Below, in pieces: positions 3,443 through 23,410 of a stretch of DNA of 25,017 bases (position 1 is its first letter; each line of letters begins with the position of its first letter). A program made the translations under genes and the position numbers. The DNA is taken from IMG/VR virus record IMGVR_UViG_3300042885_001483, positions 1 to 25,017 of that record; one strand, 5' to 3'. This stretch comes from a virus. The notes below the pieces were generated by a model. The model ran no database searches, had not been told where the DNA came from, and saw only the letters and a list, made by a program, of their open reading frames with translations.

Positions 3443-5120
3443 CGAATGCGGAACCGTAGGTGCCGGTGCCGGGTTTCATGCGTTCGCTCATGTCCCGGAG
3501 AATCCGGTTCGTCTCGCTGGTCAGCTTGTTGTTCTCCCGCTGCGCGTCGAGGGTGCCGGACGAATATCCACCGCCGCCGACTTTACCGAGCGACGTGACG
3601 ATGGGAGCCAATGTGGAGGCTGACGTGCTGACGGCCGCGGGCGTGTTGGCTGTCTTGACCTTCGCCGCAGAAGTCGCGGCCTGTTTCACATCCTCTGGCT
3701 TCGGAAGCGCCTCCCGGATGGTGCCAAGGACGTTGTTCATGCCCTCCCTCAGTCCAGTCGTGTCGATCACCTCGGCGGTGTTGGAGAATACGTCGCCGAA
3801 GCGGGCGGAGATGTTTTCGCCGGCCTCTTTGAGCCTGAGTCCCACCTTGGCGGCGAGCGGTCCAAGCTGGTCGCCCGCATCACTGAATCGCGCCGCAGCT
3901 TCGGCATCGAGAATGCCCGCCGATTCGCGCAAGGCTCCTTGGGCGGAGTTGATAGATTCACCCTTCCCGAACAACTCGGCCAGCGGGCGAGCGATCTCGA
4001 TTGCTTCGGCGATTCCTTTTTGGAGGAAGCCGACGGCGCTGAGAAAGATCCCGATCAGCGCATTGCCCATGCCCTTCCAGAAGTCGGCAGTGGTGAGGAC
4101 CTGGAAGTAGGTGATGGCCGTCTTGAAAATCTCCACGATGTATTGCCCAGCAGCCGCAATGGTGGCGCGGAGCGTGGCCCACAGGAAATTCACGCTCATG
4201 GCAAACCCGAGCTTCAACGATGATCCGACAAGGTTGATGAACTGGCCGCTCTTGAACACGGCGATGACGTATTGCAAGGCGTCTCGGATTTTGTTCCCTG
4301 CCTCCGCCGCAAGCGGAGCGAGTTTCTGGGCAAGGGCGATGGCCTGTTCAACCAGGGGCCGGATCGCATCGTTGATTGGCGTGCCGAGTGTCAGGAAGAC
4401 CTCGTTGATCGTGTCCTTGAGGGTGGAGAACAAGCCGTTGGTCGTCTTGCTTTGCGCCTCCATCATGCCCGAGAACTTTCCGCCCTGCGCGGTCATGTCG
4501 ATGAACGCCCGCTCGATGTTGGGGAATCCGACCTTGCCGGACTCCACGAGCTTCTTCACCTCGGAGTCCGACACGCCGAACTGCTTCGCGAGCTCTCCGA
4601 TGATCGGAATCCCCCGGCCAGTGAGCTGGTTGATGTCCTCAGCGAAGAGCCGCCCCTGGACCCGTGCTTTGCCGTAGAGCTCGGCGATCTCGTTGACCGG
4701 TGCCTGCACGCCCGCCGACACGTCGCCAATGCGGGCGAGAGTCGCGGCCACCGTGTCAGAACCTTCACCAAAGGCGATGAGCTTGCGGCCGGCATCCGCG
4801 AGTTCAGGGAACTCGAACGGCGTCTTTGCCCCAAGTTCACGGAGTTGCGCGAGAGTTTGCTCCGCCTTGCCCGCATCCCCAATCAGGGTCGCAAAGGCCA
4901 CTTTTGTTTGCTCGAAATCTGCGGCGGAAGTAACCGCCTTCATTCCTGCGGCTAGTGCTACGCCGCCACCAGCGAGTGCTGCCCCGAGCCCGACTTTCAA
5001 CCCAGCGGCGGTGAGGCTTGCCATCTTTTTGGCAGATGCGGAAACGAGCTGGGTGGCACCCGCCATGGACCGCTGCAACGCGGAGATGTCGGCTCCAAGG
5101 GTGACGGTCAGGGCGCTCAT
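3438..5120 (-). CDS. Tail tape measure protein
   Basis: 560 residues. The N-terminal region (about 1-240) matches the tape-measure domain style: MSALTVTLGADISALQRSM, a Gly/Ala-rich hydrophobic segment near 40-62, then an AADFEQTKVAFATLIGD block typical of this family. The middle holds long hydrophobic helices (about 290-370), and the C-terminus is Ala/Thr/Ser-rich. Tape measure proteins set tail length and line the tail tube before DNA ejection. At roughly 1.5 angstrom per residue it would imply a tail near 80-90 nm, quite short. The start ATG overlaps the stop of the frameshifted chaperone as ATGA, and GTTGAC lies 14 nt upstream. Position after the G/GT gene pair is the standard siphovirus order. 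Confidence 0.92.
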   Translation of the reverse strand: MSALTVTLGADISALQRSMAGATQLVSASAKKMASLTAAGLKVGLGAALAGGGVALAAGMKAVTSAADFEQTKVAFATLIGDAGKAEQTLAQLRELGAKTPFEFPELADAGRKLIAFGEGSDTVAATLARIGDVSAGVQAPVNEIAELYGKARVQGRLFAEDINQLTGRGIPIIGELAKQFGVSDSEVKKLVESGKVGFPNIERAFIDMTAQGGKFSGMMEAQSKTTNGLFSTLKDTINEVFLTLGTPINDAIRPLVEQAIALAQKLAPLAAEAGNKIRDALQYVIAVFKSGQFINLVGSSLKLGFAMSVNFLWATLRATIAAAGQYIVEIFKTAITYFQVLTTADFWKGMGNALIGIFLSAVGFLQKGIAEAIEIARPLAELFGKGESINSAQGALRESAGILDAEAAARFSDAGDQLGPLAAKVGLRLKEAGENISARFGDVFSNTAEVIDTTGLREGMNNVLGTIREALPKPEDVKQAATSAAKVKTANTPAAVSTSASTLAPIVTSLGKVGGGGYSSGTLDAQRENNKLTSETNRILRDMSERMKPGTGTYGSAFG

Positions 5121-13774: not shown

Positions 13775-14443
13775 TCAAATTCCCAAAGGCAACTGGGCTG
13801 GTGCAATGAGCCGATTGCCCTTCCGAATATTTTCAGCTGCCCAGCACGGTCGGAGGTTCAGATAGTTAAAGCAGACAGACTGCTGCCTAGGATCGGTTAG
13901 ATCAAACTTCGAGCAGGGAATGATGTGGTCGATGTGCCAATCGCCATAGTTTCCCCAGGACATGCCACGCTTGAACTGCTTTTCAAGGTGTCGGCAGAGT
14001 TCAGAAATACTTGCACCTGTCAGTTCAATGGCGGATTTGTTTCTCTTGCATCTGCTTGCCCTGACCAAGTCAGCCAACCTCGCTCGGAGGTGACTTTTGA
14101 TTGCAAATTCAGGATCGGACTTTTTCCGTTTCCGCGCGTGTTCCCGCTGCTGCTGTCTTAGTTTCAATCTCGATTCTTCGTCTTGAACGCGTTTTCGATA
14201 GGCTCGCAAGGAAGCTTCACGAACTTTTTCACGGCCCTCAGCGGCTTGAACCAGACGGTGATAGTAATCCCTCCCGACCTTCCTGCGCTTATCGTCGAAC
14301 TGTGTTCCGTCGTTTCGCCTTTTGCGGGCGTATTGCTTGGAGTATTCGGCCTGCCGCTTTGCCCACTCGGGATCGTCCCTGCGTTTTCCCTTTCGCCATT
14401 CACGAAGTCGATTGTTTTTCTTCTCGCGCTGTTCGGGAGTCAC
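13775..14443 (-). CDS. HNH endonuclease next to terminase
   Basis: 222 residues, GTG start. The C-terminal third carries the HNH core: WHIDHIIPCSKFDL (His170, Asp172, His173), then NYLNLRP and WAAENIRKG. The N-terminal 120 residues are very rich in Arg, Lys, Gln and Glu, likely a helical DNA-binding arm. Base composition is visibly lower in G+C than in flanking genes. It overlaps the terminase gene by 44 bases. HNH proteins beside terminase assist packaging in some cos phages (HK97 gp74 is the studied case); a free-standing homing-type nuclease is the alternative. Confidence 0.85.
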   Translation of the reverse strand: MTPEQREKKNNRLREWRKGKRRDDPEWAKRQAEYSKQYARKRRNDGTQFDDKRRKVGRDYYHRLVQAAEGREKVREASLRAYRKRVQDEESRLKLRQQQREHARKRKKSDPEFAIKSHLRARLADLVRASRCKRNKSAIELTGASISELCRHLEKQFKRGMSWGNYGDWHIDHIIPCSKFDLTDPRQQSVCFNYLNLRPCWAAENIRKGNRLIAPAQLPLGI

Positions 14444-16256
14444 TTCCCGGCGTTGCTGTCAAGTCCCGCCCGCTTGCCGCTTCTCTACCCACGATCTTCA
14501 ACATGGTCGCCCCAACAACCTGAAGACATTCCGCATCAAACAGGTGGTTAGGCCGTGAGCCGATCTGCTTCCACATCCACTGGCCTTTTTCCTTCACCCG
14601 CTGCTCACTCTCCATCTGGGCGAGGTAGTCGTCGTCGATGTCGTCGGGCACCTCCCACGTTGGGCCTTGAGCCGGATCCTGATTGCGACGCAGGCGAGCC
14701 AGGGTGTCCTTGATGTTGAGGTTGCTCCAGTAGTGGACATGGCACGACTGTTTATGCGACAGCACCACCTTGCGCCGGGGCGAGTAGAATCGTTGGACGG
14801 TTTTGCCGTCGCGTCCCTTGTGAGCATAGACCGGGCGGCGGTCTCCGATAAGTGCGACCCAACCGCGCTTGGCGCACTCGCGATAGACGTCGTAAGTCGC
14901 ATAGCCGGCGTCCAGGAACACGAGGCTCGAATGCACGCCGAAGCGTTCCTGAATCACGTCGATGTCCGTGAAGGTCAGAATGCGCTCATTCCACATCAGG
15001 CGGCTTGATCCCTCAGCCGACCAGGAGCGGACCACCAGGAACAAGTGATCCATCTGGCAGTCCACCGTGATGAAGCGCAGTGGGATCAGGCCGGTGCGTT
15101 CGGGCAACGGGGCAGCGAGAATGCGACCGGTCTTCGGATCGATCGCGCCTTCCTCTTCCCAGGTCTCACCGCGCTTGTATCCGGACTTGGTGATTTCGAG
15201 TTTGTAGTCCTCGACGTATTCGCGCCATGGCAGGCCGAGGCGCTTCTGATAGAACTGCTGGAGCAGCGAAACGTCTCCCTTCCGTGCAGCCGACTTCGCC
15301 CGCAGGTAGAGTTCGGCCAACTGTCCCCAGCTCATTGCGCACAGCGCGTTCCAGTGGAAGCCGACGTTTTCCTTTGATGCCTTTGGATTCTTCGCCACGA
15401 AGGCACCGGTGGCATTGAGTTCGCGGCGGGTGCGCTCGCCATCGCTGAAGTAGTGGTTGCACGATTCGCAGCGCAAAGCGGTGGTGCGCCGGACTTCGTC
15501 GAAATCCCAATCGCCGAATTCATCCCTGGCCGACTTGCTCCACTCGACGCATTCCCACTTGAACGGCTGGCGGTGACCGCACTCGGGACAGGCAAACGTC
15601 CACTCGCGTTGGTCGGTGGTGAGGAATTTCCGGTGGGTGTCGTCATCCTCCTCTCCGCCTTGGCTCATGAAGATGCACTTGCCAAGCCAGCCGAATGCGG
15701 TGACGCGGGCCTCGGCTTCCGCCATGTGACCTTCTGGCCATCGCCAGGTTTCATCGCCGACCAACCAGCGAATCGAACGGCGCTGCAGGTTGGTCTTGTT
15801 GTGCGCCCCGAGAATCCAGAGCACCATGCCATTGTTGAAATGGATGGCGCTGTTCTTGCGCTTGTGGCGATGAATGCCGGTGGGCATGAGCCGCGCTACC
15901 GGCTGGCATTGGTCGAAGAGTTTCTGGAGTCGCGCTTCGGAATAGTCGCGGGCGTCTTCGTCCGTCTGGTCAAGCCAGAGCGTCGGCCCGGGCAGGTTGG
16001 CGATGATGTAGCAGAGCGTCAGCTCCGGGGCCGTGGTCTTTGATGACTGGACCGACGCGATGATCGAAACCAGGCGCACACGGGGATCGACCAAGGTCTC
16101 CATCACCTCGCGAATCCATGGCGAGTTTTCCGACCGGAATCGGCCTGGGTTGGGCGAATACGGAATGCCCTCGATGTGATCCTCACACCACTCCCACGGA
16201 GGCCTTCTGTCAGGCGGTTGCCACGCCTCTCGCCAAATTTCCTTCAGGACATTCAC
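14400..16256 (-). CDS. Terminase large subunit, GpA family
   Basis: 618 residues from the GTG at 16256; an in-frame GTG at 16271 adds five residues. I prefer 16256 because GGAAGG lies just before it and the GTTGAC spacing (15 nt) matches other genes. ATPase domain: a Walker A-like SVQSSKT (about 68-74) and Walker B LVGDE (about 165-169). A zinc-ribbon-like pair CPEC (about 223-226) and CESC (about 263-266) follows, as in GpA enzymes. The nuclease half has ITVDCQMDHLFL and later FLDAGYATYDVY and NHLFDAE acidic positions. With the small subunit it cuts and pumps DNA into the prohead. Confidence 0.95.
   Translation of the reverse strand: MNVLKEIWREAWQPPDRRPPWEWCEDHIEGIPYSPNPGRFRSENSPWIREVMETLVDPRVRLVSIIASVQSSKTTAPELTLCYIIANLPGPTLWLDQTDEDARDYSEARLQKLFDQCQPVARLMPTGIHRHKRKNSAIHFNNGMVLWILGAHNKTNLQRRSIRWLVGDETWRWPEGHMAEAEARVTAFGWLGKCIFMSQGGEEDDDTHRKFLTTDQREWTFACPECGHRQPFKWECVEWSKSARDEFGDWDFDEVRRTTALRCESCNHYFSDGERTRRELNATGAFVAKNPKASKENVGFHWNALCAMSWGQLAELYLRAKSAARKGDVSLLQQFYQKRLGLPWREYVEDYKLEITKSGYKRGETWEEEGAIDPKTGRILAAPLPERTGLIPLRFITVDCQMDHLFLVVRSWSAEGSSRLMWNERILTFTDIDVIQERFGVHSSLVFLDAGYATYDVYRECAKRGWVALIGDRRPVYAHKGRDGKTVQRFYSPRRKVVLSHKQSCHVHYWSNLNIKDTLARLRRNQDPAQGPTWEVPDDIDDDYLAQMESEQRVKEKGQWMWKQIGSRPNHLFDAECLQVVGATMLKIVGREAASGRDLTATPGSDSRTAREEKQSTS
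14458..14463 (-). promoter_or_regulatory. Start-associated motif variant CTTGAC, site k
   Basis: 14 nt before the GTG at 14443, inside the 3' end of the large terminase gene. Confidence 0.5.
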
Positions 16257-16271
16257 AGTCCTTCCGCCCAC

Positions 16272-21084: not shown

Positions 21085-21419
21085 CAGAAATTGTAGTCGT
21101 GGAATTGGTGGCGACCGGGGATGACCCGTTCGCCGTTGGTGGTGCGAAACCATCTGTCCTTGCGGAGGCTTGCGCGGTGAACCATCCCGTCCGGGTTTGG
21201 CTCATAGGCATAGCGCTGCTCGGAGTTGTTCACGCAGTGGCCGGCAAATCCGCCAGGGATGAACTCGGGTTTCCAATCGTCGAGGACGGCGGTGTCCTGC
21301 TGCATCCAGACGGTCTTGCCGCTCGGACTGATTCGGATCACCGTGCAGGCAGTTCGGTCAGAGTAGTGGCAAATCGTCGCGCCGTCACCGACGGTCGGGT
21401 TCCAGTCTGGTGCGCTCAT
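21084..21419 (-). CDS. Conserved phage hypothetical protein
   Basis: 111 residues from the ATG at 21419 (MSAPDWNPTVGDGATICHY), in ATGA overlap with the preceding stop. The pattern VGDGATICHYSDRTACTVI, SPSGKTVWMQQD, GGFAGHCVNN and the closing GRHQFHDYNF is familiar from phage and plasmid hypothetical proteins, as far as I recall, with no known function. It is beta-rich and compact. It lies among early small genes before the AAA+ protein. Confidence 0.72.
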   Translation of the reverse strand: MSAPDWNPTVGDGATICHYSDRTACTVIRISPSGKTVWMQQDTAVLDDWKPEFIPGGFAGHCVNNSEQRYAYEPNPDGMVHRASLRKDRWFRTTNGERVIPGRHQFHDYNF

Positions 21420-21934
21420 TTGTTCCAGCCCTCCCTGCGGATGCGGGTTTTCAGCGTGTTGGGCGAAAGGCCGAAGTGATCGGCGGTCTGCTTCACGCTG
21501 CGGCATTCCTCCCAATGGGCCCGGACCTGCGACCAGTGGTCGTCGCCATGGCCGGGATTGCCGACCTTCTTCGCGGGTTTGGATGCCTTTGCCTTGGTTG
21601 GCTTTGTTTCCGCTGGCGTTGGTTCGGGCTCAGCCGCATCGGCGAACGCGTCGTAACGTCCCGGGCTGGCCTCGGGTTCTGGGCGGGTAATCGGCACGAC
21701 GTTCGCAGCGGCTGCTACGTTGTTGCCATCGCCTCCAGCAAGGATCTCCGCGACGATCTCGCGGATCAGCGGCACCGGGATTTCGGTGATGGTGAAGACC
21801 AGTCCGTTGAGCGTCTTGCGCCCGATGGACTGCTTGAGGAATTTCAGAGCTTCGCCTCGGGTGCGGCCCTGGTAGCGGCCTTCGAATACGTTGGTTTCCT
21901 TGTCGTCGCAGACGATCCAATACAGTTTGTTCAT
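21416..21934 (-). CDS. Hypothetical protein with C-terminal helix-turn-helix
   Basis: 172 residues, ATG start. The N-terminal 80 residues form an alpha/beta domain (MNKLYWIVCDDKETNVFEG, then LVFTITEIPVPLIREIVAEIL). A Pro/Ala/Lys-rich linker covers about 100-130. The last 40 residues (VRAHWEECRSVKQTADHFGL, then SPNTLKTRIRREGWNK) read as a helix-turn-helix, so DNA binding is likely. Candidate regulator of late genes, though no target is shown. Its leader (AACCAACCAAATAACATC) lacks both a Shine-Dalgarno sequence and the GTTGAC motif. Confidence 0.72.
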   Translation of the reverse strand: MNKLYWIVCDDKETNVFEGRYQGRTRGEALKFLKQSIGRKTLNGLVFTITEIPVPLIREIVAEILAGGDGNNVAAAANVVPITRPEPEASPGRYDAFADAAEPEPTPAETKPTKAKASKPAKKVGNPGHGDDHWSQVRAHWEECRSVKQTADHFGLSPNTLKTRIRREGWNK

Positions 21935-21938
21935 GATG

Positions 21939-22181
21939 TTATTTGGTTGGTTGTGGGTTGTGGTTGGTGACGTTGCCGTCGGTGTCGATCCGGACGCTGA
22001 AGACCAGCAGTCCGGTTTTGGTTTGCTTGGCGAAATCAGCTTGGAACTCGCGGGCGTGGAGTCCGGCCATCGGATCGACCGGCAGGATGCGCCGGGCGGT
22101 GAAGCCGTTTTTCTCGAATCCGCGAATGCCTTGTTGCATCGCCTTGGTCAGGTAGCTGTCAGTGCATGATGCTGTTGTCAT
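21939..22181 (-). CDS. Small early hypothetical protein (80 residues)
   Basis: 80 residues from the ATG at 22181 (MTTASCTDSYLTKAMQQG), chosen because a GAGGG sequence lies five bases upstream and because the duplicated leader ends here. The frame is open far upstream but that part overlaps the DUF2786 gene; a second candidate ATG at 22253 overlaps that gene's stop as ATGA. The C-terminal half (GLLVFSVRIDTDGNVTNHNP) looks like a small beta domain. Function unknown. Confidence 0.65.
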   Translation of the reverse strand: MTTASCTDSYLTKAMQQGIRGFEKNGFTARRILPVDPMAGLHAREFQADFAKQTKTGLLVFSVRIDTDGNVTNHNPQPTK

Positions 22182-22183
22182 AG

Positions 22184-22237
22184 CATCCCTCATCTGCCTG
22201 TCTGATCGGGCACGTCCATGTCTTTTTTCGTCTTTCT
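22184..22237 (-). repeat. Duplicated leader element, copy A
   Basis: 54 bp, identical at 49 positions to copy B at 23143-23196, both directly upstream of a start codon on the minus strand. Ends with GCAGATGAGGGATG, giving the ribosome site of the 80-residue gene. A UGCC/GGCA stem with an inner loop is kept in both copies. Confidence 0.8.
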
Positions 22238-22249
22238 GTTGGATGGTTT

Positions 22250-22951
22250 TCATGATGGAAGCGGGCGGTTGATTTGGATGGTCCGGCCTTTGGTTTCCCC
22301 GGCGACATAGCTGCCGGAATGCAGGCGGCGTGAACGGGTGTTGCGATTGCGGAGCTTGCCGTAATTGTCCTCGACGTAGCGGGTGATGACCGCCTGCTGG
22401 TCCACCACGACTAGTCCGTATGCCTGGCGCTGGTCGCTGGCATAGGATTGCTCGGCGCGTTGTTTCGCCGCCTTGAGTTCGGCGTTCAGTCCGTCGCGCA
22501 GGCCCCGGTAGTAGGATGCCTTGTCGGGATTGGCGTGGGTCCGTTTGAATTCGTTCCAACAGCGAAAGAATGTCTGGCGCAGGTAGTGGAAGGCATAGAT
22601 CGCAAAGTCGATGTCGGCCGCAGCGCCGATGATGTCCACCGGAGTTCCCCGGCCATCGGGCATCAGGATTGTCTTCACGTTGAAGTGCGACTGGAGCAGC
22701 GACAGGATCATGATGTCAGCCGGGTTGAGGGTCTTCGGCAGATCTACCTTGCCCTTGTTGACGGTGAAGGAAGCGCCGCCGGATTCGCCGCGTTCCATGC
22801 GGAGCAGCGCCGAGTCGATGTTGTGGCGGGTCATCAATTCCTGCGCCTTGGCCAGCGCCACCTTGGCTTCGTTCTCCGTGGAGCCGCGTGAGCGGTCGGC
22901 CAGTCGGAGGAGCTTGCGGATTTTATCGAGGATGTCGTTTTGGTTTCTCAT
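22250..22951 (-). CDS. DUF2786-type protein
   Basis: 233 residues, ATG start. The N-terminus matches the DUF2786 pattern: ILDKIRKLLRLADRSRGSTENEAKVALAKAQELMTRHNID in pieces, near residues 7-46. A middle region (about 65-135) follows with strands and helices, and the C-terminus is Arg-rich. Such proteins are common in phages, plasmids and related elements; biochemical role unknown. Leader ends CTAACCAAACCAACC directly before ATG, without a Shine-Dalgarno sequence. Confidence 0.82.
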   Translation of the reverse strand: MRNQNDILDKIRKLLRLADRSRGSTENEAKVALAKAQELMTRHNIDSALLRMERGESGGASFTVNKGKVDLPKTLNPADIMILSLLQSHFNVKTILMPDGRGTPVDIIGAAADIDFAIYAFHYLRQTFFRCWNEFKRTHANPDKASYYRGLRDGLNAELKAAKQRAEQSYASDQRQAYGLVVVDQQAVITRYVEDNYGKLRNRNTRSRRLHSGSYVAGETKGRTIQINRPLPS

Positions 22952-22971: not shown

Positions 22972-23142
22972 TCAGCGGAAAGTCATTTCATCGGCTGCGA
23001 TCTCACGGATGGCGTAGATCTCTGCTCCGGTTTTCTCGATCCAGGCGTTCAGTGCCTCGATGCTCTTGAAGGTCTTACGCCAGGGAGTGGACTTCATTCC
23101 TTTTACTCCGTGGGCTTCAATGGATAGGATGTTTGCTTTCAT
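22972..23142 (-). CDS. Small first gene of the leftward series (56 residues)
   Basis: 56 residues from the second of two adjacent ATG codons (23142; the first is at 23145), with GAGGG just upstream at the end of leader copy B. The sequence MKANILSIEAHGVKGMKSTP continues with WRKTFKSIEALNAWIEKTGA and ends MTFR. It resembles small conserved phage or plasmid hypothetical proteins in my memory. It is the first leftward gene beyond the divergent control region and so probably early expressed. Confidence 0.7.
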   Translation of the reverse strand: MKANILSIEAHGVKGMKSTPWRKTFKSIEALNAWIEKTGAEIYAIREIAADEMTFR

Positions 23143-23196
23143 CATCCCTCATCTGCCAGTCTGAGTGGGCACGTCTATGTCATTTTTCGTCTTTCT
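23143..23196 (-). repeat. Duplicated leader element, copy B
   Basis: Second copy of the 54-bp leader, with five base differences from copy A. In this copy CTCA (loop) and TGAG (just before GGATG) are also complementary, so together with UGCC/GGCA a small pseudoknot next to the ribosome site can be drawn. Confidence 0.8.
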
Positions 23197-23228: not shown

Positions 23229-23263
23229 TTGGCATGCGTCTTGAGTCACATAATCCATGCCAA
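23229..23263. promoter_or_regulatory. Operator-like palindromic repeat, unit 1
   Basis: 35 bp: TTGGCATG, 19 bases, CATGCCAA, with TGAGTCA in the centre. Identical to unit 2 at 30 of 35 positions, all differences between the arms and the centre. Likely binding site of a dimeric regulator. Confidence 0.75.
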
Positions 23264-23298
23264 CTCGGCATCCTTCGGATTGTCCCATTTTCTAACGC

Positions 23299-23333
23299 TT
23301 GGCATGAATCATGAGTCACACGATCCATGCCAA
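23299..23333. promoter_or_regulatory. Operator-like palindromic repeat, unit 2
   Basis: Same 35-bp layout as unit 1, starting 70 bp later in the same orientation. Arms TTGGCATG and CATGCCAA and the central TGAGTCA are fully kept, which suggests selection on these parts. Confidence 0.75.
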
Positions 23334-23410
23334 CGTAATGTTTTTCCATCTTTCGTTGTCTAACTCCACTTAGCCATAGACGTGAGGTGGCACCATGGCA
23401 GATATTAACC

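Follow-up and report, generated by a model that had tools for sequence, protein, structure and literature searches.

Two 35-bp palindromic units in the divergent region between the late operon and a short amidoligase operon of a temperate phage are very probably sites for a phage-made regulator of the late genes and not a classic dormancy switch. In the reading that we favor, to which we give a probability of roughly 0.55, they are operators for a dimer of a phage-encoded early protein and control the divergent late and amidoligase promoters, probably by activation. Within this reading, protein binding, activation instead of repression, and the identity of the protein are what we infer. The window analyzed here is an entire IMG/VR record of 25,017 bases. 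Its host genome was located separately, and gene calls beyond the listed open reading frames were made with a simple codon-usage script.

An exact scan of the window for TTGGCATG-N19-CATGCCAA returned exactly two matches, and the pattern did not occur in 100 dinucleotide shuffles of the window. Unit 1 (TTGGCATGCGTCTTGAGTCACATAATCCATGCCAA, 23229-23263) lies on the late-operon side and unit 2 (TTGGCATGAATCATGAGTCACACGATCCATGCCAA, 23299-23333) on the amidoligase side; both are putative operators. They are separated by a 35-bp spacer (23264-23298) and stand 70 bp apart from start to start, exactly as the earlier note had described. Each unit is built from two inverted 16-bp half-sites (TTGGCAYRNNKYNTGR) about a 3-bp centre, which occupy 23229-23244 (+) and 23248-23263 (−) in unit 1, and 23299-23314 (+) and 23318-23333 (−) in unit 2. 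By itself, the arm octamer is ordinary in the window, with 7 exact copies and 31 copies at up to one mismatch against 22.5 expected. What stands out is the pairing of two arms at a fixed gap.

Conservation of the arms in relatives, a point that the earlier note had left to be checked, was confirmed: the unit was found with up to two mismatches in 40 of 49 related viral contigs, and a reversed control pattern in none of them. Relatives keep the 35-bp length, the arms and the core. From all loci we collected 69 distinct units, mutually related and not independent as sequences, which yield the half-site given above. Among them T14, G15, C21 and A22 are invariant, and arm positions 1-6 are conserved at 94-100% (positions 2-6 at 98-100%); half-site position 7 is C or T, and position 8 is mostly G or A. 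The central TGAGTCA that had been reported as conserved is indeed present, but the core that relatives share is TG-N5-CA, found in all 69 distinct units, with TGAGCGTCA, TGAACGTCA and TGGGTGCCA as alternative versions. All 13 distinct unit pairs show a spacing of 70-71 bp. The unit is single in some relatives; many have a degenerate unit 2 with one half-site left, and a few carry a 37-bp version in which both half-sites persist and the centre is longer by two bases. In the same region of the distant relatives L095, L097 and L101 there are 6-9 copies of TTGGCAY in varied arrangement, where 0.03-0.2 would be expected. An extra perfect palindrome, ATTCGGAGCGCTCCGAAT, is located midway between the units in L005 and several relatives, and traces of it are visible in the window.

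A complete prophage that is 98% identical over nearly all of the window was found in a Verrucomicrobia MAG (contig G049:C6, RDYP01000021.1), and the unit-adjacent DUF2786 gene has relatives of at least 90% identity in Verrucomicrobiales MAGs. This prophage contains four exact half-sites in all, every one in the control region described here. In 18 host genomes, the unit is essentially confined to the prophage, apart from a few isolated matches at two mismatches; the reversed control pattern matches one of these 18 genomes. Across 384 genomes of the class, the unit (up to one mismatch) was present in two, and both pairs are prophage copies. The scattered identical host copies that had been raised as a possible objection were found in neither set of genomes, and we rejected scattered REP-like genomic repeats as an explanation. 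With the unit restricted to prophages, neither a multi-target host regulator nor a repeat family is likely. An exact scan of IMG/VR with the pattern, whose spelling is window-specific, gave no match, and neither did blastn against named phages.

The 98%-identical prophage begins with leftward genes for ImmA/IrrE and an XRE repressor, followed by an early operon that encodes an ATPase, a nuclease, a helicase, a primase and two proteins, RegA and RegB. Then come the amidoligase operon in the opposite direction, the two units, and the late genes for a small ORF, DUF2786, an HTH protein, an AAA ATPase, ParB-like proteins, terminase, portal, capsid and tail, after which excisionase and integrase close the order. 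This gene order, from ImmA/IrrE and XRE to excisionase and integrase, indicates that the phage, of which the window is a fragment, is temperate and carries the units between its late and amidoligase operons. The leftward genes, previously taken to be early, therefore form the late operon, which runs from the small ORF and DUF2786 to terminase, portal, capsid and tail. In the window, its first gene is the small ORF (22972-23145, minus strand; 56-57 aa, no family match) and its second a DUF2786/DUF7168 protein (phrog_421; 22250-22951, minus strand), while the terminase large subunit (GpA; 14400-16271, minus strand) marks the operon as late and structural. The distance from unit 1 to the first ATGs of this operon, which contains terminase and capsid, is 83-87 bp. 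The rightward genes in the window are the short amidoligase operon, which meets the end of the early operon and opens with the amidoligase gene (PF12224; 23426-24217, plus strand; the start may be 23411). An HNH-like ORF, recognized by eye at 13775-14443 beside the terminase end, is missing from the 98%-identical prophage, which has a 1.8-kb insert elsewhere (G049 80092-81533).

On each side of the divergent region, a second shared element, CATRGAC-N14-TGGCAGAT, stands 8-22 bases before a start codon, and we refer to it as the leader. One copy (CATAGAC-N14-TGGCAGAT; 23151-23179, minus strand) precedes the first late gene, 8 bp before the ATG at 23142 and 49 bp from unit 1. A copy of the same spelling (23375-23403, plus strand) precedes the amidoligase gene (ATG 23411 or 23426) and is 41 bp from unit 2, and a third leader (22192-22220, minus strand) lies without a unit within the late operon, before the gene at 21939-22181. 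In the window both sides have CATAGAC; most relatives have CATGGAC. Six phages without the unit, L150, L153, L208, L218, L219 and G032, have the leader as well; it is older and wider than the unit. The first five of these have a short divergent region, and their lack of the unit implies that, across the wider group, late transcription can do without it. Related forms of the leader occur in the distant L163, L178 and L180. The L163 dyads 71 bp apart, considered as an equivalent architecture in other letters, proved to be the two leader elements of that phage.

Gaps between unit and leader cluster at 30-31, 40-41, 49-51 and 57-58 bp, about one helical turn apart, with 57-58 and 66 bp as exceptions to the steps of about 10 bp. 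A ligase gene inserted in G003/G017 comes with a unit and a leader of its own at the same distance. These shared distances, together with the ligase's own unit and leader, suggest that unit and leader form a promoter-type module. The leader is a putative promoter, and may be the promoter itself, or else a 5' control element or RNA leader; no sigma-70-type promoter was found near the units and no such consensus at the leader. In L003, L005, L017 and L021, a DNA ligase gene lies between the two units, and in L021 the ligase 3' end joins on within the centre of an old unit 2, as if by recombination there. The proposal of operator-like sites at a divergent control region thus holds for these units, which are kept in relatives, confined to prophages and placed upstream of start-proximal leader elements.

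We propose that a dimer of a phage-encoded DNA-binding protein would occupy the paired half-sites of each unit, and that the units would control two divergent promoters, one for the late operon and one for the amidoligase operon. The regulator, most likely made from the early operon, would activate the late side at the early-to-late switch, in the manner of P2 Ogr or Mu Mor/C. The best candidates for it would be RegA, with a sigma-region-4-like HTH, and RegB, which is ParB-HTH-like. Activation of late and accessory transcription is favored by the position of the site upstream of the late operon and its absence from the repressor region, as well as by a leader tens of bases away with hints of helical phasing and by the regulators that end the early operon. 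Late activators are often encoded at the end of an early operon.

The RegA and RegB genes (L241:10319-10867 and L241:10864-11469, both with relatives in L123-L202) are adjacent at the end of the early operon, which in the 98%-identical prophage is just past the end of the window. RegA has a helix, TRAAVSKRC, that is nearly invariant in dozens of Verrucomicrobia phages, and it gave weak Foldseek matches to sigma region 4 and KorA (all Foldseek E > 0.02). The top Foldseek matches of RegB were ParB/Noc/Spo0J DNA-binding structures, with a probability of 1.00 and a best E of only 0.029, and it matched HTH_ParB weakly (E 0.024); the protein has about 20 residues before the helices and is without the CTPase domain. 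PDB sequence searches with RegA and RegB returned nothing significant.

Most unit-bearing contigs that span their region contain RegA and RegB. As exceptions to this co-occurrence run in both directions, we rejected the pair as proven binders: L213 and L214 have a unit with no RegB and a different RegA-like HTH protein, L044 is without RegA and RegB at the usual place, L068 keeps the unit with strongly diverged RegA and RegB, and L093, L094 and L216 have both proteins with the unit absent. A third small early protein likewise shows no consistent association with the unit. At L216:3976-4005, a different dyad, GGTTCAATTCCACTATCCAAATTGAACC, is found where the 35-bp unit would be. By position and fold only, RegA and RegB are the leading candidate binders. 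The late-operon HTH protein (21416-21934, minus strand), which the earlier note had named as a possible binder, occurs in unit-plus and unit-minus phages alike, with an unchanged recognition helix in phages lacking the unit. Nothing singles it out, and we rejected it as a specific binder. The other suggestion made there, a binder outside the window, proved right as far as the candidates go, with RegA and RegB just beyond its end. A bolder and rather doubtful version of our reading is that the early RegA/RegB pair, present in dozens of Verrucomicrobia phages and KorA/KorB-like in combining a sigma-region-4-like HTH with a CTPase-less ParB-HTH, switches on all late genes. If true, RegA/RegB would represent a new type of late switch, with one divergent region, 35-bp bipartite dyads and a shared start-proximal element.

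The main alternative to activation is repression. It is possible, although on the unlikely side, that the units are repressor operators that silence the late and amidoligase operons in the lysogen or serve autoregulation, perhaps with the late-operon HTH protein or RegB as the repressor. Repressors typically use palindromic dimer sites in divergent regions, looping could occur between paired sites at a fixed 70-71 bp, and the RegB fold resembles the ParB/KorB group, whose plasmid member KorB is a repressor. However, the units lie 31-58 bp upstream of the leader elements without overlapping them, several relatives use one unit for both sides, so that looping between two units is unneeded, and the late-operon HTH protein is the same in phages that lack units.

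We also considered a replication origin or partition site, iteron-like or parS-like, as the intergenic position, the repeated half-sites and the ParB-HTH-like RegB might suggest. The fixed distance from unit to leader, which includes the inserted ligase gene, makes this very improbable, as do units that persist where the replication module has been swapped (L213 and L214, which have other primases) and the existence of phages without units.

Even less can be said for lysis/lysogeny operators of a CI-type repressor, although the phage is temperate and the dyads lie between divergent genes, and we rejected this reading. In the 98%-identical prophage, the XRE gene (63432-63797) heads the early operon about 10 kb from the units (73615-73719), and the XRE and ImmA/IrrE pair has a divergent region of its own with different dyads: TGTGTGAGGACTCTCACACA in G003/G013/G017, and TGTGTGAAAATTTCACAC and TGTGAACGTTCACA in G049. 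These dyads differ between repressor variants, whereas the 35-bp unit stays constant, and no TTGGCAY half-site was found in the repressor/early intergenic region of G049. CI/Cro-type operators resemble the units in being short dyads in a divergent phage region, but they adjoin the repressor, between it and the divergent early operon, which the units do not. Of the two roles put forward in the earlier note, early-to-late control is thus the one favored, and a lysis/lysogeny switch is not supported. The XRE/ImmA locus was also located at L110:4744-5378 and L241:3790-4080, and its dyads, of the form TGTGTGAG-N4-CTCACACA or of the TGTGTGAA type, are likely the immunity operators of the phage group. 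BREX-like genes (BrxC-, BrxB- and BrxA-like by eye; L240:14847-19887) adjoin the repressor end of the G049 prophage, and other relatives have methyltransferase-like genes in that place.

RNA hairpins, such as an attenuator, a terminator or RNA-protein sites, are similarly implausible. Each unit can be folded as RNA, with z about −3 to −6. Yet at Y7, R8 and Y12 each half varies on its own, which produces T.G as well as C.A combinations. In the oriented units, A.C mismatches outnumber G.T mismatches, by 31 to 22 in unit 1 and by 26 to 17 in unit 2. Since G.T would be acceptable in an RNA stem and A.C disfavored there, A.C mismatches at least as common as G.T fit DNA half-sites. Furthermore, the pairs 9-27, 10-26 and 13-23 are mostly unpaired, the TG/CA that would fall in the loop never varies, what is preserved in the 37-bp variants and in single half-sites is the sequence and not the stem, and we obtained no Rfam match and no terminator call. 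Overlapping sigma-54 promoters have next to nothing in their favor: the half-site TTGGCAYG-N5-TG resembles a −24/−12 element (TTGGCACG-N4-TTGC in the consensus), with which the arm and the TG agree, but at position 16 the −12 C is C in 4% of half-sites and A in 59%, the G being present, and neither strict inverted pairing nor a unit spacing of 70-71 bp is expected for promoters.

Returning to operators for an early phage protein, we found no description of transcription control in Verrucomicrobia phages in the literature searched. The units provide a sharply defined, lineage-specific putative operator at the divergent control region of the late genes, separate from the repressor locus and with two testable candidate regulators named. 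The early-to-late switch of this freshwater prophage group thereby becomes accessible to ordinary binding and reporter assays.

Late activation of the P2 Ogr type uses 18-bp TGT-N12-ACA sites, and in Smp131 a single dyad position serves the divergent late promoters PP' and PO' (4398-4381 / 4381-4398) (PMC3931495). There, as proposed here, dyads for a phage activator lie upstream of late operons. The units differ in sequence (TTGGCAYR-N19-YRTGCCAA), in their length of 35 bp instead of 18 bp and in their bipartite half-sites, and P2 has four such control regions where this phage has one. As the unit does not match TGT-N12-ACA, we rejected membership in the P2 Ogr family; no zinc-finger Ogr homolog was identified in this phage. 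The Mu Mor site at the middle promoter spans 16 bp, with two inverted repeats of 5 bp centred at −43.5 (PMC4390567). It is a dimer site that lies upstream of a weak promoter or takes the place of part of it, for an activator from the preceding transcription phase, as we propose here. The unit is longer, with four predicted contact blocks. A further likeness, by weak Foldseek matches, links the side-by-side genes of RegA and RegB to KorA/KorB of RK2 and the ParB HTH family, RegA resembling KorA and sigma region 4 and RegB resembling ParB/Noc/Spo0J; RegB differs in being without the CTPase domain, and the matches all have E > 0.02. The unit sequence presumably differs from parS and from the KorA and KorB sites. 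Taken together, the unit belongs to a well-known kind of control element and has a recognition sequence not described before.
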